Origin: Sphingorhabdus sp. M41 | GTDB lineage: Bacteria; Pseudomonadota; Alphaproteobacteria; Sphingomonadales; Sphingomonadaceae | NCBI RefSeq assembly: GCF_001586275.1 | Contig: NZ_CP014545.1 | Coordinates: 1,514,501 to 1,578,500 of the forward strand | Direction of reading: 5' to 3' | DNA: 64,000 nt | Shown: positions 3,668 through 44,441 of the stretch, in pieces | Numbering within the stretch: the stretch's first letter is position 1 | Layout of the letters: every line of letters begins with the position of its first letter | The notes under the pieces: generated by a model | What the model was told of the DNA's origin: nothing | Database searches by the model: none | What the model saw: the letters and a program-made list of their open reading frames with translations, nothing else | Position numbers and translations under genes: made by a program

Positions 3668-4529
3668 AGCAAAAGAATCCCTGAATGAGAGAGATATTCA
3701 GTCGGCGATTTCGGGCCTTGGCGCTTCCGGTGCCTCGATCATTCGTCAATCCGATATGATCGACGCGAAGGCGCTGGATATTTTCTTCAAAGGAGATCCG
3801 GTCAAGGTGCGGGCCCATCTCGAACAGATGGAAGGCGATATTGACGTGGCGGTGCAGCCGGAAGCAAATCGCGTCAAGAAACTCCTGATTTCCGACATGG
3901 ATAGCACCATGATCACGGTCGAATGTATCGATGAACTGGCTGATTATGCCGGCATAAAGTCCGAGATCGCAGCGATCACCGAACGCGCGATGCAGGGCGA
4001 ACTGGATTTTGAACAAGCGCTCCGCAGCAGGGTAGCGCTGCTCGAGGGGCTGGATACCGCCGCTATTCAACTTTGTCTGGATGAACGGGTGAAAATCATG
4101 CCGGGGGCGGAAACCCTTGTCAGAACCATGGCCCGGAGCGGAGCATCGACTATATTGGTGTCAGGCGGATTCACAAAATTTGCGAAGCCTGTCGCGCAAG
4201 CCATTGGATTTGAGTCTTTTCATGCGAATATTCTGGGCGAAGGCGGGGGCTTGCTGACCGGCGGGCTGGACGGACCGATAGTCGATTCGACCCGCAAGGA
4301 CGAGCTGCTGCAGTCAGGCGCGCAAGCGGCGAGCCTGTCCTTGGAGCTTTGCATGGCAGTTGGTGATGGTGCCAACGATATTCCGATGCTGCAACGGGCT
4401 GGACTCGGTATTGCATATCACGCCAAGCCGAAAGCCGCACAAGCCGCTGACATCGCCATCAAATATAATGATCTCACGGCGCTGCTGTATATTCAGGGAA
4501 TTGGCGCCGACCAGTGGGTCACCAAATAG
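3648..4529 (+). CDS. serB: Phosphoserine phosphatase SerB
   Basis: A 293-aa HAD-family phosphatase for the last step of serine synthesis, O-phospho-L-serine to L-serine. The catalytic DxDST motif is seen as SDMDSTMITVECIDELADY (Asp83 nucleophile, Asp85 acid/base). HAD motif II is ILVSGGFTKFA, and motif IV is GDGANDIPMLQRAGLGIAYHAKP. Residues 1-75 form the ACT-like regulatory part found in bacterial SerB. The ATG at 3648 follows GGAGA at good spacing. The start overlaps that of the divergent miaA, so promoters of each gene must lie inside the other. Confidence 0.95.
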   Translation: MFIATLIAKESLNERDIQSAISGLGASGASIIRQSDMIDAKALDIFFKGDPVKVRAHLEQMEGDIDVAVQPEANRVKKLLISDMDSTMITVECIDELADYAGIKSEIAAITERAMQGELDFEQALRSRVALLEGLDTAAIQLCLDERVKIMPGAETLVRTMARSGASTILVSGGFTKFAKPVAQAIGFESFHANILGEGGGLLTGGLDGPIVDSTRKDELLQSGAQAASLSLELCMAVGDGANDIPMLQRAGLGIAYHAKPKAAQAADIAIKYNDLTALLYIQGIGADQWVTK

Positions 4530-4536
4530 ACGCGTT

Positions 4537-5565
4537 CTAGCGCCGCTTTGTAATGCAGTCATTGCCGGCAGCCTTGACGCTGCTGCACATCGAATCCGCT
4601 TGTGCCCGGGTTGCAAAAGGTCCTGCCTGTAACCGGGTGATCCCGCCCGCCTTGACCAGATAGGGCTGCATTCCGGCCAAGGCAGAAATGCTGCCTTCCA
4701 GCTTGGTCCACAGGTTTTTCGCCTTATTCTCATCGCTAAATGCGCCCAGCTGCACACGCCAGTCTCCGCTGACGGCAGCTTTTACCGTAGCCGGTGTCGC
4801 GACGGGTGCTGCCTGGACCGGTGCTGGCGCCGGTGTCGGGCTTGGCGCATAAGTAACGCCAGGCGCATTCGGGCCTGCCTCCGGAACCGGGGTGGGTAGG
4901 GCAGGACGGGACGGCGGCAATTGCGCCGTTTGCACGGACCCGGTCGACTGCGGCGGACGCAGGCCACCGACTTGGGCGGTTTTGATCCGCTGTTCGTCCT
5001 GCTCCATCTGGCCCGCCAGTTCGATCGCACGACGGCGGTCTTCAATCGGGATGAAGCGATCCATTTGAGCAAGATTGCTCGTTGCCTGCGGCAGTTCCTG
5101 TGCCGACGCGCGCGTCATCAGAGCATAAGCCTTGATCCAGTCCTTTTCGACAAAATCTCCGTTGAAATGGCCGGTACCCAAAACATATTGCGCCCGCGGT
5201 TCGCCGCGTTCGACGGAGGCCTGCAAATAGGGCAGGGCTTCGCTCCGGCGATTGGCCTGAAACAGCACCAGACCATAATTGTCACTGGCCTGCATGTGAC
5301 CCTGATCAGCCGCTTTTTTGTACCATTTTTCAGCCTCCCCCAAATCCTGGAGAACGCCACGACCCAATTTATAGGCCTGGCCAAGATTGAACTGTGCATC
5401 GGCGTCGCCTTTTGCAGCAGGTCCCCGCCATTCGTTAATCGCTGTCTGAAAATCGCCGCGACCCCATGCGTCGACCCCGGCCTTAACATCAGCCAAGGCC
5501 GGCGCGGAAACCAGAATTAGTGCCAGTCCGAGCAACGGCGTGATGGGATGATTGGCCTTTTTCAT
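4537..5565 (-). CDS. Sel1/TPR-repeat periplasmic protein with C-terminal SPOR domain
   Basis: A 342-aa protein. A signal peptide covers residues 1 to about 25 (basic start, hydrophobic core, cleavage after APALA). Sel1-type repeats follow (KGDADAQFNLGQAYKLGRG; AEKWYKKAADQGHMQAS), then a Pro/Ala-rich linker, then a SPOR domain starting at WRVQLGAFSDENKA. SPOR domains bind peptidoglycan stripped of stem peptides at the division site. Two cysteines nine residues apart (CSSVKAAGNDC) close the domain. The ATG at 5565 follows AAGGA; an upstream TTG in frame is less likely. It is divergent from the parA operon, whose last gene encodes a second SPOR protein with the same ending. Confidence 0.85.
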   Translation of the reverse strand: MKKANHPITPLLGLALILVSAPALADVKAGVDAWGRGDFQTAINEWRGPAAKGDADAQFNLGQAYKLGRGVLQDLGEAEKWYKKAADQGHMQASDNYGLVLFQANRRSEALPYLQASVERGEPRAQYVLGTGHFNGDFVEKDWIKAYALMTRASAQELPQATSNLAQMDRFIPIEDRRRAIELAGQMEQDEQRIKTAQVGGLRPPQSTGSVQTAQLPPSRPALPTPVPEAGPNAPGVTYAPSPTPAPAPVQAAPVATPATVKAAVSGDWRVQLGAFSDENKAKNLWTKLEGSISALAGMQPYLVKAGGITRLQAGPFATRAQADSMCSSVKAAGNDCITKRR

Positions 5566-25959: not shown

Positions 25960-27627
25960 ATGCTAAACCCGGATATGAAACAATTTCTGCTCAGCTGCTT
26001 TGTCCTGGCCTGTCTGTTCTGCCTTGATCAACCCGCCAAGGCGGAATGCGTGGCTCCTCAGGGTGAGCGCGGTGTTGCGCTGCTCATTGGTATCAGCGCC
26101 TATGATGACATCAACTGGCCCGCATTGGCGAACGCGGTCAATGATATCGACCATGTCTGCACCGCCTTTGCCAAAGCGGGTTTTGAAATCATCGACGTGC
26201 GCAACGCGAATATCGCCGAGTTGAACAGCGCTACCGCTGCTTTTGCAGCCAAGGCAGCCAGGGCCGACAGCGCGGTTGTCTATTACGCCGGCCACGGTTT
26301 TGAATATAACGGCCGCAATTTCATGGTTCCGGTCAATGCGCCGGCTTTTGCGTCGAGGGACGAGCTCGATACAGAGTTTCTTCCGCTGGAGAAGATGCTT
26401 GAAGCCGCTTCAAAGGCGAAAAAGTTTAACCTGTTCTTCATGGATGCCTGCCGGACCGCCGACCCGATTGTGCGGCTGAAAGACGAGAGCAGCGATGACC
26501 CTGATGGCGGCATTTCGCCGATGGGGTTGCTGGAGATGACGCAAGGCGCAGTTTTTTATTCTACCGCCAAGGGGAAGCCGGCTCTGGATGCCGCTCCTGC
26601 GGATTCCAGTACAAGTCCCTTTGCCGAAGCGATTGCCAGCAAACTTGCCATTCCCGGTCTCGAGCTGTCCGATTATTTCAAGGTCGTATCGCGCGAGGTT
26701 TATACCAACACAAGAGAGCTGGATTTGGGGCCGCAGCAACCGTTTCATTATGGCAGCTGGTTTGAGGACTTCTATCTCAACCTGCCGTCAGATGCCTCTG
26801 GCAATCCGGGTCCGGCATCTTCTTCTCCGGCAACGCGATCTTCTTTGGCAATCAGCATTCCCATGGCACGCCTTGCGATCGAGGACGAAACGATATTGGT
26901 CGGTGAGGTTCTCGGCGATCTGGGTGTCGGCGATTTGACCCGGCTCGCGACAAAGGGTGATCCGCTGGCGCAATCTTTCCTGGGCTATATGTACCATCTC
27001 GGTGTCGGGGTTCGCAAGGATCTGAAACAGGCTGTGGGCTGGCTGGAAAAGTCGGCGGCACAAGGGCATCCTGCGGGACAGACCGAACTGGCCTGGTATT
27101 ATCAGGAGAACCAGCCGGAAAAGGCAAGCCGCGCACTGGAGCTATATCTGCTCGCCGCTGCGCAGGGCTATGCCAAGGCCCAATCGCATCTCGGTTTCGC
27201 CCTGTGGGAGGGAAAATTCGGCATTGTCGACAAAAAGCGGGCGATCGACCTGTTCAAGGACGCATCGGATCGCGGTCATCCCTATGCCACTTACGCGCTG
27301 GGCATTTACGGAAACCAGGTTGAGGAATCGATGCGAAAGCTGCGGTTGCTGGCCGATGGCGGGAATGTCGAGGGCAACAACTGGATATGCGAGCTGCAAT
27401 ATCAGCAGGGGCAGGCGGACAAGGTGGCCAAGGATTGTTCGCTTGCCGCAAGGGACGGATATGCCGGGGCCAGAGCGATTTGGGCGCAGCTTCACGATCG
27501 TGGCCAGGGCACTCCCAAATCGCCAAGCGAGGCGCGCTATTGGGCGATGCTTGCTAGCAGTCAGGCCGAACTTGCGCAGCGCCCTGATCTGGAACGCGCA
27601 ACTGCAAACATCCTGACCCGCAACTAG
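25960..27627 (+). CDS. Exported caspase-like (C14) peptidase with Sel1 repeats
   Basis: A 555-aa protein with a signal peptide (cleavage near PAKAEC). Residues 37 to about 275 form a caspase-fold domain: GVALLIGISAYDDI, catalytic His112 in VVYYAGHGFEYNG, catalytic Cys164 in FFMDACRTADP. A Ser/Pro-rich linker follows, then Sel1 repeats from about 320 to 530 (LAQSFLGYMYHLGVGVRKDL; YAKAQSHLGFALWEGK). The dyad is intact, so activity is plausible. The ATG at 25975 is an alternative start. Domain order and export suggest an envelope-located metacaspase-like peptidase. Substrate unknown. Confidence 0.85.
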   Translation: MLNPDMKQFLLSCFVLACLFCLDQPAKAECVAPQGERGVALLIGISAYDDINWPALANAVNDIDHVCTAFAKAGFEIIDVRNANIAELNSATAAFAAKAARADSAVVYYAGHGFEYNGRNFMVPVNAPAFASRDELDTEFLPLEKMLEAASKAKKFNLFFMDACRTADPIVRLKDESSDDPDGGISPMGLLEMTQGAVFYSTAKGKPALDAAPADSSTSPFAEAIASKLAIPGLELSDYFKVVSREVYTNTRELDLGPQQPFHYGSWFEDFYLNLPSDASGNPGPASSSPATRSSLAISIPMARLAIEDETILVGEVLGDLGVGDLTRLATKGDPLAQSFLGYMYHLGVGVRKDLKQAVGWLEKSAAQGHPAGQTELAWYYQENQPEKASRALELYLLAAAQGYAKAQSHLGFALWEGKFGIVDKKRAIDLFKDASDRGHPYATYALGIYGNQVEESMRKLRLLADGGNVEGNNWICELQYQQGQADKVAKDCSLAARDGYAGARAIWAQLHDRGQGTPKSPSEARYWAMLASSQAELAQRPDLERATANILTRN

Positions 27628-27677: not shown

Positions 27678-28214
27678 ATGCCAAAAGCAAAACGATCCGA
27701 TAATTGGGGTTTTCCCCGCTGGGGAAGCTATGAAAGCTCCCGCGAAACGCAACAGGTCAAGCTTTGTGACCGGCACGGTTGCGACGAAGCGGGCAACTGT
27801 CCAGCGCCCAAATCACCCAATAGTCCCGAACGCTGGTATTTTTGCCAGAATCATGCGGCCGAATATAACCGGGGTTGGGACTATTTCGAGGGGCTCGACA
27901 AGGAAGAGCGCAAGAAACGCGAAGCCGATGAGCAGCGTGATGCCAATGCCTATCAGGAAGCGGCCCATTACAGCTGGATGGGTTCCGGCGACGGCAGCCG
28001 TTCGCGCGACGAGATGACCGCGCTGGAAATTTTTGACCTGACTCCCGATGTCGAGTTTGACACGGTGAAAAAGGCGTGGCGCTCAATGGCCAAGGAATAT
28101 CATCCCGATGTCAATCCGGGCGATGCAGAGGCGGCCAAGAAATTCCAGGCGGCTCAGGCGGCTTTCGATGTCTTGCGGATCGCCGAAGAACGCCGCGTCT
28201 GGAAACCTATCTAG
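27678..28214 (+). CDS. J-domain protein with Cys/His-rich N-terminal region
   Basis: A 178-aa protein. The J-domain is C-terminal (about 113-175; EIFDLTPDVEFDTVKKAWRS, then KEYHPDVNPGD with the HPD tripeptide) and would stimulate a DnaK partner. The N-terminal half has CDRHGCDEAGNC and WYFCQNHAAEYN, a Cys/His pattern that could bind zinc. This layout recurs in alphaproteobacterial J-proteins. There is no Gly/Phe region or DnaJ zinc-finger, so it is a class III co-chaperone of unknown client. Confidence 0.85.
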   Translation: MPKAKRSDNWGFPRWGSYESSRETQQVKLCDRHGCDEAGNCPAPKSPNSPERWYFCQNHAAEYNRGWDYFEGLDKEERKKREADEQRDANAYQEAAHYSWMGSGDGSRSRDEMTALEIFDLTPDVEFDTVKKAWRSMAKEYHPDVNPGDAEAAKKFQAAQAAFDVLRIAEERRVWKPI

Positions 28215-28764: not shown

Positions 28765-28839
28765 CCGTTCGTGCTGAGCTTGTCGAAGGGCAGGCGGCAC
28801 GCGCTCAAGCCGATGTTTCGACAAGCTCAGCACGAACGG
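28765..28839. repeat. Dispersed palindromic repeat (REP-like), copy 2
   Basis: CCGTTCGTGCTGAGCTTGTC with GAAGGG at the left and TTTCGACAAGCTCAGCACGA with ACGG at the right form an almost perfect long inverted repeat around a GC-rich centre. It sits between the divergent 5' flank of sufE and the 3' end of the psp operon. It may work as a transcript-end hairpin for the psp operon. Confidence 0.85.
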
Positions 28840-28847
28840 CGTGTGCC

Positions 28848-29081
28848 TTAAAGCTCCACGCCCGCCGCAATCGCTTCCAGCTTGCGGATACGCTCTTTCA
28901 GATCCGCTACCTCGATCCGCGATGTGGCGGTGGGGGGATTATCCTCGCGCCGCTGCTCGATTTCGCGGGATTTGAGCGCGATCCAGTCGCGCCAGCCACG
29001 CAGGGTGACGAGTGCGACCACCGTCAATCCAATCAGCGAAAATGCTGCGGTGATCATATAAAAAGCAGGTTCTTGCATCAT
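28848..29081 (-). CDS. Small PspB-like membrane protein, tandem copy 5
   Basis: A 77-aa protein with one membrane span (about residues 8-26, FYMITAAFSLIGLTVVALVT) and a cytoplasmic charged tail ending in a short coiled coil, LKERIRKLEAIAAGVEL. The RIxxLExI pattern is that of PspB (family pattern RIQALESIL). It is the last gene of the psp operon, 28 bp after the previous copy. It is shorter than the other copies and lacks the final ELENEIEKLRDR-type heptads. Role inferred from context: envelope stress. Confidence 0.7.
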   Translation of the reverse strand: MMQEPAFYMITAAFSLIGLTVVALVTLRGWRDWIALKSREIEQRREDNPPTATSRIEVADLKERIRKLEAIAAGVEL

Positions 29082-29108
29082 GCTTGTCCTTCCACTTTCC
29101 GAACCGGT

Positions 29109-29369
29109 TTACCGGTCACGCAATTTTTCGATCTCGTTTTCCAGTTCCCGTGCGCCGCGATCATCGGTGGCGATTTTCTCGAGCACCGCGACGCGCTCCT
29201 TCAGATATTTCACTTCTTCCTGCAGCCGTCCGGAATCCCGATTCTGAGCGGCAACCTCATTGCCATGCTTGTCTTCGACAATTCCATGTTGCGCGCGGTA
29301 GCGCGTGCTCAGCACTTTCCCGATTGTGATAACGATGATTATGGCAACAACCATTTCAAAAGGATTCAT
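29109..29369 (-). CDS. Small PspB-like membrane protein, tandem copy 4
   Basis: An 86-aa protein. Residues 5-20 (EMVVAIIIVITIGKVL) span the membrane. The tail carries EEVKYLKERVAVLEKIATDD and then ELENEIEKLRDR. That tail is nearly identical to copy 3 (EEMRYLKDRVAVLEKITTDG ... QLESEIEQLRDR), so the two are recent duplicates. Predicted topology has a periplasmic N-terminus and a cytoplasmic coiled coil. Confidence 0.72.
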   Translation of the reverse strand: MNPFEMVVAIIIVITIGKVLSTRYRAQHGIVEDKHGNEVAAQNRDSGRLQEEVKYLKERVAVLEKIATDDRGARELENEIEKLRDR

Positions 29370-29401
29370 CTGAAAATTCCCTCCCGTCCGCGCTTACCCG
29401 A

Positions 29402-29656
29402 CTAGCGGTCGCGCAATTGTTCAATTTCGCTTTCCAGCTGCCGTGTGCTGTGACCATCCGTTGTGATCTTTTCCAGCACTGCGACGCGGTCTTTGAGATA
29501 TCTCATTTCTTCGCGCATCCGCTCCGCGTCTGCGTCATGGGTGGCGGGAAATTCTCCGCGCATTTTGATCAGCTTCCTTTGGTGACCTGTCCATATTGCG
29601 AACCCGGCGACGGCAAATGCTCCGAATGGGATGAGTAGCGCGATTATGCCTTCCAT
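29402..29656 (-). CDS. Small PspB-like membrane protein, tandem copy 3
   Basis: An 84-aa protein. The membrane span is at about 4-22 (IIALLIPFGAFAVAGFAIW), followed by basic GHQRKLIKMRG and the coiled coil EEMRYLKDRVAVLEKITTDG, ending QLESEIEQLRDR. PspB itself begins with a similar IALLIPF-like span. Its stop is 33 bp before copy 4, and its start lies 14 bp after the copy 2 stop. Confidence 0.72.
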   Translation of the reverse strand: MEGIIALLIPFGAFAVAGFAIWTGHQRKLIKMRGEFPATHDADAERMREEMRYLKDRVAVLEKITTDGHSTRQLESEIEQLRDR

Positions 29657-29669
29657 AAACTCTGTCCTC

Positions 29670-30002
29670 TTAATTCGCGCGCTTGTCGCGCAGCTGTTCT
29701 ATTTCCTGGGTCAGTCGGTGGCTGTCATCGGTGACAATCCGTTCGACATTGGCGAGCCGGTCTTTGACCGAGCCCAGTTCGGCGCGCAGTTCGGCATTTT
29801 CATTGGTCAGCAATTTAACCCGCTCGACGGCTTCCTGATCGGTCTTGGGATAGACTGACTTGCCCCATTGGTTTTCCAGAGGATAGCCGTTCTTGATCCG
29901 CATCCAGGTGGTCAGGACCCAGCCGCCGACTGCAATAGCAGCGACAACTGCAATGATTGGGGCAAGTTCGGTGATCATGGTGATCTTTTCCGGATCCATC
30001 AA
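29670..30002 (-). CDS. Small PspB-like membrane protein, tandem copy 2
   Basis: A 110-aa protein. The membrane span is at about 13-31 (APIIAVVAAIAVGGWVLTTW), then RIKNGYPLENQWGK and a coiled coil (LTNENAELRAELGSVKDRLA; NVERIVTDDSHRL), ending EIEQLRDKRAN. The middle GYPLENQWGK matches GYELEDEWGG of copy 1, so these two form a subpair. The start overlaps the stop of copy 1 by ATGA. The likely start is one of the methionines at residues 1, 2 or 9. Confidence 0.72.
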   Translation of the reverse strand: MMDPEKITMITELAPIIAVVAAIAVGGWVLTTWMRIKNGYPLENQWGKSVYPKTDQEAVERVKLLTNENAELRAELGSVKDRLANVERIVTDDSHRLTQEIEQLRDKRAN

Positions 30003-30313
30003 TTCTTCTCCCTTAATGCTTCGATTTCATCCGCCGTCCGTTTGGCGGGATCAGTGGCGATCCGTTCGAGCACTTGCAGGCGTTCCTGCAGGCGGTCGAT
30101 CTTGCCGACCAGTTGCGCATTTTCATTGGAGAGCAACTCGATCTTGCGATGTTCGTCCGGGCTGGCTTTGGCAGACTTGCCGGTCTTTCCGCCCCATTCA
30201 TCTTCCAGTTCATAGCCATGTTTGGCTCGGATCCAGTTGTTGATGATCCATCCGCCATAGCTGACGGCGATGATGGCGATAACAAATTCGGGGCTTCCCC
30301 AATCCATATCCAT
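29999..30313 (-). CDS. Small PspB-like membrane protein, tandem copy 1
   Basis: A 104-aa protein with a short membrane span (about 9-25, EFVIAIIAVSYGGWIINNW), then IRAKHGYELEDEWGG and the coiled coil LLSNENAQLVGKIDRLQERL, QVLERIATDPAKRTAD, EIEALREKN. The ribosome site GGAGAATGG precedes the ATG. It follows pspC by 17 bp and overlaps copy 2 by ATGA. The coiled coil is longer than in true PspB. Confidence 0.72.
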   Translation of the reverse strand: MDMDWGSPEFVIAIIAVSYGGWIINNWIRAKHGYELEDEWGGKTGKSAKASPDEHRKIELLSNENAQLVGKIDRLQERLQVLERIATDPAKRTADEIEALREKN

Positions 30314-30330
30314 TCTCCCTGTTCAGGCGC

Positions 30331-30714
30331 TTAGCGCAGGTTCTCGATCTCGTTCGACAGCGTCGTGTTCTTGCTGGTGTAATAGAGTTCCATGTCGGCC
30401 AGCTTGCGGTCGATTTCCCGGAAGCGCGATTTGATGTCGCGGCTGGTGCGGCGCGGCGATTGGCGCACGCCCTGCCAGAATTTGGTGTCTTCCGGATCGC
30501 TCAGATACATGCCGATCGGTTTTGGCTCGGAAATCTTGGCTGCGATCCAATAGGCTATCAGCGTCCAGGGAAAGGCAAAGGTTACCGTTGCGATGATCGC
30601 TGCGAGTCGAACCCAGGCCACATTGATCCCGGTGTAGTCGGCGATCCCGGCACAGACACCGCTCCATTTTGCGCGTTGCTTGTCGAGATAGAATTTGGTG
30701 CGGGAGGAGCTCAT
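30331..30714 (-). CDS. pspC: Phage shock protein PspC
   Basis: A 127-aa protein with the PspC domain: KFYLDKQRAKWSGVCAGIAD, TGINVAWVRLAAI, a membrane span (AFPWTLIAYWIAAKI) and a soluble C-terminal coiled region. PspC sits in the inner membrane with PspB, senses envelope stress and releases PspF from PspA. The gene overlaps pspB by ATGA and is followed by the run of PspB-like genes. Confidence 0.9.
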   Translation of the reverse strand: MSSSRTKFYLDKQRAKWSGVCAGIADYTGINVAWVRLAAIIATVTFAFPWTLIAYWIAAKISEPKPIGMYLSDPEDTKFWQGVRQSPRRTSRDIKSRFREIDRKLADMELYYTSKNTTLSNEIENLR

Positions 30715-31019
30715 GAGGGGTGCCTTTCTTTTTTCAGCAGCTCGTCAAAATTTTCGAGCGTCGGGGTTGGCTCAGTTGAGGGGCTTGGAAGACCGGATTG
30801 ACGCCAGTCGGGGTTGTCCGCTGCCATGATGCGCTCAATGGTTTCCATCCGGTCATCCAGACGGCGGGCCATGTGGTGCAATTCTTCCAGCAGATTCTCA
30901 TCTTCATTGGTGATCGTCGCCGCGGTTTTCCATTTGGTCACATAGTGAAAGATCAACCACGGCAGACCGATGAATAACGTTCCCATTACGATGGGAATGA
31001 TGATGAGTTCTTCCTGCAT
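30711..31019 (-). CDS. pspB: Phage shock protein PspB
   Basis: A 102-aa protein. The N-terminal span (LIIIPIVMGTLFIGLPWLIF) is followed by HYVTKW, then LLEELHHMARRLDDRMETIE and RIMAADNPDWRQ. The last stretch matches the PspB signature (RIxALExILDaehPnWR) best of all six PspB-like proteins here. An extra 20-residue Pro/Thr-rich tail is present. It overlaps the pspA stop by one base (TAATG). Confidence 0.88.
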   Translation of the reverse strand: MQEELIIIPIVMGTLFIGLPWLIFHYVTKWKTAATITNEDENLLEELHHMARRLDDRMETIERIMAADNPDWRQSGLPSPSTEPTPTLENFDELLKKERHPS

Positions 31020-31693
31020 TATGCGTCACCTTTTTTCATGGCTGCCTTCATGGCTTCCAGTTCTTCATCAACCTTGTCGCTGGATTCGAGCGCAGCGATC
31101 TGGTTCTCCAGGCTCTGTGGCTCTCCGCCCATGCCAAGCGAGTCGGCACGGCCTTCGGCAAAATCCACCTGGCGTTCCAGATATTCAAACCGCGAGAAGG
31201 CATCATGCACTTTCTCACCATTGTACATTTCGCGCAATTTCACGCGATTTTCAGCGCTTTCAAGCCGATTGACCAGGCTGCTCTGGCGCGAGCGGGCTTC
31301 CTGCAGTTTCTTCTGCAATTTCGCAATGTCACCTTCGGACGCGCGGAGCGCATCATCGAGCACCTGGATTTCCGCTTTCAACTGGTCCGCCATGTCAGCA
31401 GCCTTGCGCTTTTCGACCAATGCCGCCTTGGCGAGATCTTCACGATCCTTGGAAAGCGCGAGCTGGGCTTTTTCGCTCCAGTCCTCGGTCAGATGATCCA
31501 GCTTGTCGATATGCCGGCGCATTTCCTTCTGGTCGGCAATCGTGCGAGCCGCCGAGGCGCGAACTTCGACCAGGGTTTCCTCCATCTCGAGGATGATCAT
31601 GCGGATCATTTTGGACGGGTCTTCAGCCTTGTCCAGCATGTCGGTAACGTTGGCGGCGATAATGTCGCGTGTTCTTGAAAAAATACCAGCCAT
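31019..31693 (-). CDS. pspA: Phage shock protein PspA (IM30 family)
   Basis: A 224-aa coiled-coil ESCRT-III-like protein: MAGIFSRTRDIIAANVTDML (membrane-binding helix), DKAEDPSKMIRMIILEMEET, then long coiled coils (KLDHLTEDWSEKAQLALSKD). PspA binds PspF to repress the regulon and polymerises on damaged inner membrane. ATG 31693 is the family start; the open frame upstream is an artefact of the leader. It is the second gene of the operon. Confidence 0.95.
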   Translation of the reverse strand: MAGIFSRTRDIIAANVTDMLDKAEDPSKMIRMIILEMEETLVEVRASAARTIADQKEMRRHIDKLDHLTEDWSEKAQLALSKDREDLAKAALVEKRKAADMADQLKAEIQVLDDALRASEGDIAKLQKKLQEARSRQSSLVNRLESAENRVKLREMYNGEKVHDAFSRFEYLERQVDFAEGRADSLGMGGEPQSLENQIAALESSDKVDEELEAMKAAMKKGDA

Positions 31694-31842: not shown

Positions 31843-32019
31843 TCATGCCCGATAACCGATGTTAACAAAGCTGACAGAGGGGGATTCGGTCTGGTGATCC
31901 ACCATCATACCTTCGGCCTGTGCGGGTCCGACGGCGCTGAGCAAAATCGTCACGCTGAATAGCAGGATCGAGATAACCGCAGAGATATCGGTGCGGCTCA
32001 TTTTGGTCAGTGCAGGCAT
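31843..32019 (-). CDS. 58-aa exported or single-span peptide leading the psp operon
   Basis: A small gene starting at ATG 32019 behind a strong CTGGAGGAAACC ribosome site. The product begins MPALTKMSRTDISAVISILL, continues as a hydrophobic core to SAVGPAQAEG (a plausible signal-peptidase site after AQA) and ends SVSFVNIGYRA. If cleaved, the mature peptide would be about 25 residues. It is first in the sigma-54-driven psp operon, before pspA. I do not recognise a family. Role in stress signalling is inference from position. Confidence 0.65.
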   Translation of the reverse strand: MPALTKMSRTDISAVISILLFSVTILLSAVGPAQAEGMMVDHQTESPSVSFVNIGYRA

Positions 32020-32063: not shown

Positions 32064-32080
32064 TGCAGAAGGCGTGCCAA
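32064..32080 (-). promoter_or_regulatory. Sigma-54 (-24/-12) promoter of the psp operon
   Basis: On the minus strand, TTGGCACGCCTTCTGCA: the -24 GG (32078-32077) and -12 GC (32066-32065) are ten bases apart, as required, and TGGCACG matches the consensus exactly. Transcription would start near 32053, about 34 bases before the first gene. It faces away from pspF, the sigma-54 activator encoded next door. Confidence 0.85.
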
Positions 32081-32096: not shown

Positions 32097-32180
32097 AAAT
32101 ATATCGATTATCTATAATTTCCTGCCTGATGAACATGGTATTAATTGCTATTTAATGGTAATTGACACTATATATTGGCC

Positions 32181-33227
32181 ATGGAACGGGAAAGTCAGTT
32201 TGTCGGAGAATCGGGGGCCTTCCTCGATGCCGTGGAAAAAGCCAGTCGGGCGGCGCCACTCAACCGCCCCGTGCTTGTCGTTGGTGAGCGCGGAACAGGC
32301 AAGGAGCTTATCGCCGAACGCCTTCACCGACTCAGTCTGCGTTGGGATGGGCCGTTTATCACGCTCAATTGTGCAGCGATGCCGGAAACCCTGATTGAAG
32401 CGGAATTGTTCGGTCACGAGGCAGGAGCCTTTACCGGTGCGACAAAGGCGCGGGTAGGGCGATTCGAGGAAGCAGACGGCGGCACATTATTCCTCGACGA
32501 ACTGGGTACATTATCTACCGGCGCGCAGGAACGTCTGTTACGGGCAGTGGAATATGGCGAGATCACGCGTATCGGATCGTCCCGGCCACAGCGCGTCGAT
32601 GTCCGGATCGTCGCGGCTACCAATGCCGATCTGCCAAAAATGGCGGAACAAAACAAATTTCGCGCCGACTTGCTCGACCGGCTTTCATTCGAAGTTGTGA
32701 CTTTGCCGCCGCTCCGCGTGCGCGAAGGCGATATCCCGGTACTGGCGGACTATTTCGGCCGTCGCATGGCCGCCGAACTGGAATGGCCGTCATGGCCCGG
32801 CTTCGGCCGTCTCGCATCGGAGGCGCTGAACCGGCATAATTGGCCCGGCAATGTAAGGGAATTGCGCAACGTGATCGAGCGCGCCGTCTACCAATGGAAT
32901 GATCATAGCAGACCGGTTGACCATGTTGTGTTCGACCCGTTTGAATCGCCCTGGAAGCCACGAGAGACCAAGGAAGGGCCGGACGCTGAACCTGCTGAAC
33001 CGTCGACGGGAGAAGGCCAGCCTGTGCATTCTGACCCGGCTGCGACGGAACCGGTCTTCCAGGATGTGGACGACATGAAAGCGGCGGTGGAAGCCTATGA
33101 AAAGCGGATATTGGAAGCCGCGCTGGCGAAATCACGCTATAATCAGCGGCAGACCGCCAAGACACTCAACCTGACCTATGACCAGTTGCGCCATTCTCTA
33201 AAGAGGCATGATCTGCTGGGGACATAG
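32181..33227 (+). CDS. pspF: Phage shock operon transcriptional activator PspF
   Basis: A 348-aa AAA+ enhancer-binding protein without an N-terminal receiver domain. Walker A is VVGERGTGKELIA, the sigma-54-contacting loop GAFTGATKA is intact, Walker B is GGTLFLDELGTL, and RHNWPGNVRELRNVIERAVY closes the ATPase. The C-terminal Fis-type HTH is NQRQTAKTLNLTYDQLRHSL. A linker of about 60 residues rich in Pro and Glu separates the two domains. ATG 32181 has no obvious Shine-Dalgarno. It diverges from the psp operon. Confidence 0.95.
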   Translation: MERESQFVGESGAFLDAVEKASRAAPLNRPVLVVGERGTGKELIAERLHRLSLRWDGPFITLNCAAMPETLIEAELFGHEAGAFTGATKARVGRFEEADGGTLFLDELGTLSTGAQERLLRAVEYGEITRIGSSRPQRVDVRIVAATNADLPKMAEQNKFRADLLDRLSFEVVTLPPLRVREGDIPVLADYFGRRMAAELEWPSWPGFGRLASEALNRHNWPGNVRELRNVIERAVYQWNDHSRPVDHVVFDPFESPWKPRETKEGPDAEPAEPSTGEGQPVHSDPAATEPVFQDVDDMKAAVEAYEKRILEAALAKSRYNQRQTAKTLNLTYDQLRHSLKRHDLLGT

Positions 33228-43596: not shown

Positions 43597-44441
43597 CCTT
43601 CACCGCTCAAATCCTCACCCTTTACCCGGAGATGTTTCCCGGGCCGCTTGGCACATCGCTGGCAGGCAGGGCGCTCTCGGAGGGCAAGTGGGCCTGCGAC
43701 ACCATCAACCCCCGCAATTTCGCGACCGACAAACATCGCAGCGTCGATGACACGCCGGCGGGCGGCGGTGCCGGCATGGTGCTGCGGGCGGATATCATGG
43801 CCGCAGCGGTGGACCATGCTGTGGAGCGGATGGAAAAATACGTGGCGGCACAGAACTCCGTTCGTCCTGAGCCTGTCGAAGGACAGGGTGGTGAGGCGAG
43901 CGGTGCTTCGACAAGCTCAGCACGAACGGCTCCACCACCACACGCCCCCGTCCTCGCCATGACCCCGCGCGGGAAACCGCTCACCCAGGCCCGCGTCCGC
44001 GAAATCGCGACCGGTCCCGGCGTCACCATAATCTGTGGCCGTTTTGAAGGATTTGACGAGCGCCTGTTCGACGCCCGCGAGATCGAGGAAGTGTCGATCG
44101 GCGACTATGTCCTGTCCGGCGGAGAAATGGGCGCCTTGGTGCTTTTAGACGCTTGCATTCGGCTGCTTCCCGGGGTAATGGGCGCGTCTTCTAGCGGAGA
44201 TGACGAGAGTTTCGAGAACGTTATTCTGGAATATCCGCAATATACCCGACCTCAAATATGGGAAGGGCGCATTATCCCTGAAGTTTTGCGATCGGGGGAT
44301 CATGCGAAAATAGCTGCTTGGCGGAAACAACGGGCAGAGGAAGATACACGGCTAAGGCGGCCGGATTTATGGGAGCGTCACAGGGACGCTCCGGATCAGT
44401 CGCCCTCTGGTGCGCAGGAAAAAGATAAAGATAAGGAATAG
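43593..44441 (+). CDS. trmD: tRNA (guanine37-N1)-methyltransferase TrmD with repeat-derived insert
   Basis: A 282-aa SPOUT methyltransferase. Recognisable are [40 protein letters not shown], the knot [15 protein letters not shown] and the SAM loop [19 protein letters not shown]. Residues 89-113 ([20 protein letters not shown] with SARTA) are encoded by a dispersed palindrome and lie just before [14 protein letters not shown], at a surface-loop position. E. coli TrmD is 255 aa; removing the insert gives the normal size. The C-terminal tail is charged. Confidence 0.94.
43858..43929. repeat. Dispersed palindromic repeat inside trmD, copy 3
   Basis: CCGTTCGTCCTGAGCCTGTC at the left and CTTCGACAAGCTCAGCACGA with ACGG at the right, as in copies 1 and 2. 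The element is 72 bp, exactly 24 codons, so the reading frame is preserved. Confidence 0.88.

Follow-up and report, generated by a model that had tools for sequence, protein, structure and literature searches.

Tandem single-span membrane proteins with a PspC-type tail follow pspABC throughout the sampled Sphingomonadaceae

Accounts of the Psp response usually name a single PspB and a single PspC as its membrane partners. Here we analyse a psp operon of Sphingorhabdus sp. M41 (Sphingomonadaceae) in which pspA, pspB and pspC are followed by an array of five further small genes. The window, meaning the whole stretch of DNA that was analysed, is 64,000 nucleotides long (positions 1,514,501 to 1,578,500 of contig NZ_CP014545.1), and coordinates refer to it unless another locus is named. 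Several described systems come close to this arrangement. The Escherichia coli fragment PspC40-119, comprising the span and tail of PspC, is reported to bind PspA, its leucine zipper being required for binding, and to induce psp without PspB when strongly overexpressed (PMC3068692). In Yersinia, the C-terminal cytoplasmic domain of PspC is reported to bind PspA when the response is on (PMC5596341). Ravi et al. (2024, PMC11237479) describe duplicated PspB in psp operons (for example, AOL22920.1) as well as a divergent PspB fused to PspC, and a 2022 survey found more than one PspC domain in many genomes (PMC9239133).

Like the tail of PspC and the PspC40-119 fragment, the array proteins have one span, an R-x4-E coil and, at the C-terminus, a T[DS]...E[IFL]xxL tail that is predicted to be cytoplasmic. 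Unlike PspC, they lack the N-terminal PF04024 domain, are encoded by separate genes in one to seven copies, and have membrane halves that are not recognisably those of PspC. With PspB (PF06667, TIGR02976) they share size, a single N-terminal span, the coil core and a position in the psp operon, yet none of 240 family members carries the motif H[YF]x[TS]x[WLM], and genes 1-5 of the window score far below curated cut-offs. The locus resembles those of Ravi et al. (2024, PMC11237479) in having extra PspB-like modules adjoining pspABC; in the available part of that study such duplicates occupy one clause, which defines no family and gives neither counts nor an analysis of tails or mosaicism. A precedent for the reading that we develop below is provided by two loci from one genus of another alphaproteobacterial family (L158, 3066-3552; L159, 3326-3811), where pspABC is directly followed by a gene for a free single-span PspC-tail protein (E value 4.6e-9 and 5.3e-9) and by a PspB copy (5.1e-14 and 6.5e-14). 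These loci differ from the array in having two small genes only, each recognisable as PspC tail or PspB. Searches of the open-licence literature turned up no description of the array, of its tail or of mosaicism in it. Extra PspB-like genes in psp operons are already in print.

In the window, the whole run is encoded on the minus strand. It begins with pspA (31019..31693; TIGR02977, 2.3e-83), pspB (30711..31019; PF06667, 1.5e-26) and pspC (30331..30714; TIGR02978, 1.6e-34), whose product ends in LSNEIENLR. As a preliminary description of this DNA had stated, five contiguous small open reading frames (ORFs) follow at 28848-30313. Gene 1 (29999..30313, 104 residues), of a type that we call alpha, contains GYELEDEW; gene 2 (29670..29999, 109 residues), type beta, contains GYPLENQW; and both encode one span and a PspC-type tail. 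Gene 3 (29402..29656, 84 residues), type delta, is a mosaic that combines a membrane half of another type, gamma, with an epsilon-type tail. Gene 4 (29109..29369, 86 residues), type epsilon, starts with MNPFEMVV and again encodes one span and a PspC-type tail, and gene 5 (28848..29081, 77 residues) belongs to a separate conserved family (RIEVADLKERIRKLEAIAAGVEL). Intergenic distances from pspC through gene 5 are 17, -1, 13, 32 and 27 bp, those within the array thus ranging from -1 to 32 bp. As reported earlier, all five products have a single hydrophobic span near the N-terminus and a coil with the R-x4-E core, and four of them have the EIExLR ending.

To place the array in context, 80 psp loci were fetched, hand-picked as congeners plus one or a few loci per genus. 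The latter came from the best matches obtained when 247 genomes of the order were searched with PspC (242 matched), so that genera with a weaker PspC are unsampled. One locus at a contig end without pspC (L076) was removed before all counts and the window was added, giving 80 loci: 61 from Sphingomonadaceae (16 from the genus of the window and 45 from other genera) and 19 from other families of the order. One broken, fragmentary array (L067) was kept and counted as a single copy; additional family loci fetched later stand outside the counts. Hidden Markov models (HMMs) seeded from each of genes 1-4 retrieved nearly identical sets of 244-251 ORFs over the 80 loci, showing that these genes are one family, for which there is no curated model. 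Members shorter than 70 residues were excluded, leaving 240.

The array is family-wide in this sample. Genes like 1-4 occur in all 61 Sphingomonadaceae loci, in one to seven copies, with means of 4.7 in the window's genus and 3.6 in the other genera; this rules out an accident of the window. Among the 19 loci of other families, 16 have no array gene and three have one. The order alpha-beta-(gamma)-delta-epsilon is kept in 14 of the 16 loci of the genus, and gaps within the psp gene run are at most 60 bp in 279 of 295 cases. Gene 2 found a match in 16 of the 17 congeners searched, one of the 16 giving weak fragments only; the congener without a match has an 80%-complete genome. A DNA scan with gene 2 returned 289 candidates that encode a relative, and the best 80 of these came from Sphingomonadales, Sphingomonadaceae or sphingomonad genera, except for one 'Proteobacteria bacterium'. 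The closest named genera among the best 80 were Sphingorhabdus and Parasphingorhabdus, with records near the source genome possibly omitted. In a class-wide search of 289 genomes, 21 matched. Five of these were the source genome and four more from its family; the remaining 16 lay outside the family, one with a strong match (5.9e-19) and the rest at 1.9e-7 or weaker. Within the source genome, matches to the array family at E <= 0.001 were confined to the five genes, gene 5 weakly so (5.8e-4). The strong outside match consists of two array-like genes in another family of the class (L153, 2730-3209, minus strand). They lie about 80 kb from the pspA and pspC of that genome, beside ORFs that, named by eye, are dut-like and coaBC-like.

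Whether genes 1-4 are PspB, PspC or neither is addressed by both profiles and motifs. None of genes 1-5 matched PF06667 at E <= 1 or PF04024, and no window gene of the array matched a Pfam or NCBIfam model over its curated cut-off. Against TIGR02976 (PspB), genes 1 and 4 reach 16.1 and 13.6 bits with a cut-off of 51.7. Gene 2 matches TIGR02978 (PspC) over profile positions 30-121 at 5.4e-6, below the cut-off, and has no PspB match; gene 4 also has a weak PspC match (0.049). When 94 members were compared with 18950 NCBIfam models, PspC TIGR02978 was the commonest match, in 42 of them (best 5.4e-6). PspB TIGR02976 came next with 24 (best 1.7e-7), ahead of another PspB model with 12. In the Pfam scan of the same members, the PspB model matched 10 (best 3.8e-5), and PF04024 was absent from the 25 families listed of 28. 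Profile-profile comparison aligned the family with PspC at 9.4e-8 over 44 columns reaching the very C-terminus (42 columns in a repeat run), and with PspB at 1.3e-7 over 27 columns of the coil only. The PspA coiled coil, used as a control, scored 0.013, and three column shuffles never did better than 0.0027. Similarity of coiled coils alone was not adopted as the explanation, because the PspA control stands at 0.013 against values of about 1e-7 to 1e-8. The relation to PspB proposed earlier is found, though weakly, the window's genes scoring below curated cut-offs. The window's PspB and PspC themselves matched no solved structure by sequence at E <= 1.

It is the motifs that separate the two possible parents. 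The patterns were written after the sequences had been seen, that for the PspB membrane exit, H[YF]x[TS]x[WLM], being our choice from the PspB alignment of the sampled loci. This motif is present in 80 of 81 PspB and in none of the 240 members, and the idea of five extra PspB copies is rejected on that count. PxWR is likewise missing from all members (40 of 81 PspB have it), and the PspC N-terminal domain, with its GVCxGI-type core, occurs in 71 of 80 PspC and in no member. The tight ending EIxxL[RA], by contrast, is found in 225 of 240 members and 62 of 80 PspC, as against 0 of 81 PspB and 8 of 240 shuffled members. A looser PspC-type tail pattern covers all members and all 80 PspC, with 31 of 81 PspB and 35 of 240 shuffled sequences. 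By the tests made, therefore, genes 1-4 encode proteins of PspB-like build, with a single span and a PspC-type tail, that are members of neither family. Of the earlier label 'PspB-like', what stands is a set of paralogous single-span coiled-coil proteins related to PspB and PspC.

Gene 5 had been counted as one kind with the rest, which holds for genes 1-4 only. Its HMM retrieved a separate set of 58 ORFs over the 80 loci; members of this family occur in 56 of the 61 Sphingomonadaceae loci, closing the array in all 56. Profile comparison relates it to genes 1-4 (hhalign 1.2e-8; 1.5e-7 over 23 columns in a second run), with no clear relation to PspB or PspC. By sequence, gene 5 represents a separate, related and strongly conserved family.

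The membrane topology and regulation of the array can be predicted from these loci. Topology and half identities were computed twice, with starts chosen near the span and with the most upstream start permitted by the preceding gene, and the outcome was the same. The span score was at least 1.6 in 237 of 240 members. Lysine and arginine residues following the span outnumber those that precede it in 237 members with the most upstream starts and in 239 with starts near the span; the tail is therefore probably cytoplasmic. On the opposite strand, divergent from the operon, lies pspF, encoding a sigma-54 activator (32175..33227, plus strand; TIGR02974, 4.5e-146). A sigma-54 (-24/-12) type promoter site, TGGCACGCCTTCTGCA, is placed between pspF and pspA at 32064..32079 (minus strand), with one mismatch to TGGCAC-N5-TTGCW. 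When the 700 bases preceding pspA were scanned and the best candidate was kept, such sites were found in all 79 loci that could be counted (L132 lacks pspA): 30 exact, 47 with one mismatch and two with two mismatches. Shuffled upstream stretches gave no site with zero or one mismatch and seven with two. One-mismatch sites are no commoner than chance across the window, and the evidence lies in their place and conservation. The sigma-54 site and divergent pspF are the features of a PspF regulon, and the gene spacing leads us to infer that the array is co-transcribed with pspABC. Zymomonas papers report induction of psp genes, ZMO1062, called pspD, being named along with pspA; array genes go unnamed in the available parts of those papers. 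Reports of array expression were not found in the open-licence literature searched.

Since the array proteins share the build of PspC40-119 and the isoleucine ending of PspC, we tentatively favour the reading that they provide extra docks for PspA. Genes 1-4 would encode PspF-induced single-span docking proteins with their tails inside the cell, like E. coli PspC40-119, and gene 5 a related single-span partner; we hold this to be possible, though we would stop just short of calling it probable. Release of PspF would lead to synthesis of the array proteins, which would insert in the inner membrane beside PspB and PspC. Their tails might then bind PspA, or the PspC/PspB zipper, by analogy with the tail of PspC. 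Extra PspA docking sites on the membrane could keep PspA off PspF, acting as a positive-feedback latch, and the array might help to anchor PspA polymers. With their dissimilar membrane halves, the proteins would each answer to, or reside in, a membrane state of their own and share a single output. The isoleucine of the EIxxLR position is present in PspC itself in 61 of 61 loci of the array-bearing family and in 2 of 19 from other families, as would be expected if both tails meet one partner.

A number of points weigh against this docking reading. The isoleucine ending of PspC within the family may represent a single inherited event, and the motif tallies are post hoc. Profile scores leave PspB and PspC equally near: genes 1, 3 and 4 have weak PspB matches (E values 0.01, 0.12 and 0.061), and profiles of the out-group place PspB nearer (2e-8) than PspC (6.4e-6). 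PspC matches PspA itself at 4e-4, a measure of the background similarity among short coiled coils. Gene 5 family members have no tail ending of this type (0 of 56). In E. coli, low-level PspC40-119 gave no stress-dependent induction, which was seen with full-length PspC only, and the topology of PspC is described as uncertain (PMC3068692).

The contrast between the two halves of the proteins is where a second explanation draws its support. In this explanation the array is a set of multi-input sensors: each protein replaces or joins PspB and PspC in hetero-oligomers, its own membrane half detects a particular lesion and the shared coil passes the signal to PspA by way of PspC, with no docking of PspA by the array protein itself. 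Neighbouring genes share 24% identity in their membrane halves and 46% in their tails (22% against 46% when the halves are anchored on the span), and the tail is the more similar half in 388 of 399 neighbour pairs in both computations. Among orthologues within the genus (11-14 per gene), tails are 85-98% and membrane halves 55-79% identical, the lower values being partly due to start choice. When the halves are clustered separately, the GYxLE membrane type is found alongside four main types of tail and other membrane types alongside two or three, although the clustering cut-offs are arbitrary and plain divergence could mimic exchange. Binding of E. coli PspB to PspC through their membrane regions (PMC3068692) also agrees with such hetero-oligomers. 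Membrane segments tolerate substitution, however, so divergence alone is no proof of sensing, and no ligand, lesion or sensing domain was seen in the array proteins. We regard a sensor set that bypasses PspA docking as rather unlikely. The graded or multi-input sensor and scaffold ideas of the preliminary description are possible readings.

The firmest case of exchange between membrane half and tail, as judged by sequence comparison, is gene 3. Compared with paralogues outside the genus, membrane halves of gene 3 type score a mean of 112 with gamma and 36 with epsilon, the shuffled mean being 27-29 and the maximum 43. Their tails score a mean of 113 with epsilon and 67 with gamma. All 15 gene-3-type proteins (that of the window and 14 counterparts) combine a gamma-type membrane half with an epsilon-type tail. 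The set was picked by a tail pattern and then also by a membrane-half pattern (n = 15 both times), so the tail half of the result stems partly from selection, which does not apply to the membrane-half result. The mosaic gene directly follows gamma in nine of the ten loci of the genus that keep gamma, and in the tenth an unclassified gene stands there. The gamma type was not found in the window. In locus L063 (about 4427-4713 in gene orientation), a 287-base gap in which the search found no family ORF separates the second and third family genes. Congeners hold a gamma gene at this place, and the gap may stem from decay of that copy or from misassembly. The earlier proposal of successive duplication accordingly survives in part, the combination of a gamma membrane half with an epsilon tail ruling it out in its simple form for gene 3. 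The VAVLEKI motif common to genes 3 and 4, previously read as a sign of their duplication, comes from the tail alone because gene 3 is a mosaic; similarity between the membrane halves of the two is no higher than the shuffled level. Three loci of another family have just one array gene, and its MNxFEMVV-like start resembles that of gene 4, which makes epsilon a candidate for the most ancient type.

From this mosaicism we speculate that the array of Sphingomonadaceae is modular, with membrane heads and PspC-type tails swapped between neighbours, such that fresh sensor or anchor variants continually arise in the operon, all reporting to PspA by a common tail; we put this forward as a conjecture that is more doubtful than not. 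More generally, tandem one-span proteins with a PspC-like tail suggest that several different sensors or anchors in the membrane feed a single common response. Across a whole bacterial family, the part that resembles the PspA binder of E. coli appears to have been multiplied and recombined with different membrane segments. Such natural variants offer a way to ask what is sensed by the PspBC complex and what number of docking sites PspA requires, and they point to a small-protein family whose window members match no curated Pfam or NCBIfam model over cut-off.

If the resemblance to PspB is given more weight, the array proteins could instead be silencers, whose coils bind the PspC tail, hold the response off and add layers of negative control. 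A single N-terminal span with a coil is the architecture of PspB, and PspB models match some members (24 of 94 in NCBIfam and 10 of 94 in Pfam, as above). Yet the membrane-exit motif and PxWR are missing from every member, the latter being found in only 40 of 81 PspB; the ending is that of PspC, and the genes lie downstream in a PspF-controlled run. We judge silencing to be quite improbable. A further reading is largely neutral gain and loss of small tandem genes carried along by a useful operon, each copy adding little function. It would fit the variation in copy number from one to seven, also within the genus (where one locus with a single copy has a broken or fragmentary array), the missing gamma type in the window and the origin of the mosaic gene, but is very unlikely, as the occurrence of the array in all 61 family loci, its conserved order (14 of 16 loci of the genus) and the 85-98% identity of orthologous tails point to selection.

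Between the promoter and pspA, the window holds a leader ORF of 58 residues with one hydrophobic span (31843..32019, minus strand), which had no Pfam match over cut-off. Many Sphingomonadaceae loci (uncounted) have a similar short ORF at the corresponding place, to which the Zymomonas gene ZMO1062 might correspond, and in two loci (L078 and L116) the ORF at this place is 166 and 172 residues long and matches TonB C-terminal models. At the other end of the array, directly after gene 5, a perfect 23-bp inverted repeat with a 29-nt spacer (28765..28839, no strand assigned) is possibly the end of the transcription unit; a SufE gene (PF02657, 5e-35) lies beyond it. The sequence CGTTCGTGCTGAGCTTGTCGAA is present in five copies in the window (at most two mismatches; chance expectation none), at 28765-28839, 13062 and 43859-43928, and forms opposed pairs at two of these three places. 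Also near the array is a gene for a caspase-domain (Peptidase_C14) protein with Sel1 repeats (25960-27627, plus strand), with a DnaJ-domain protein encoded downstream of it at 27678-28214.

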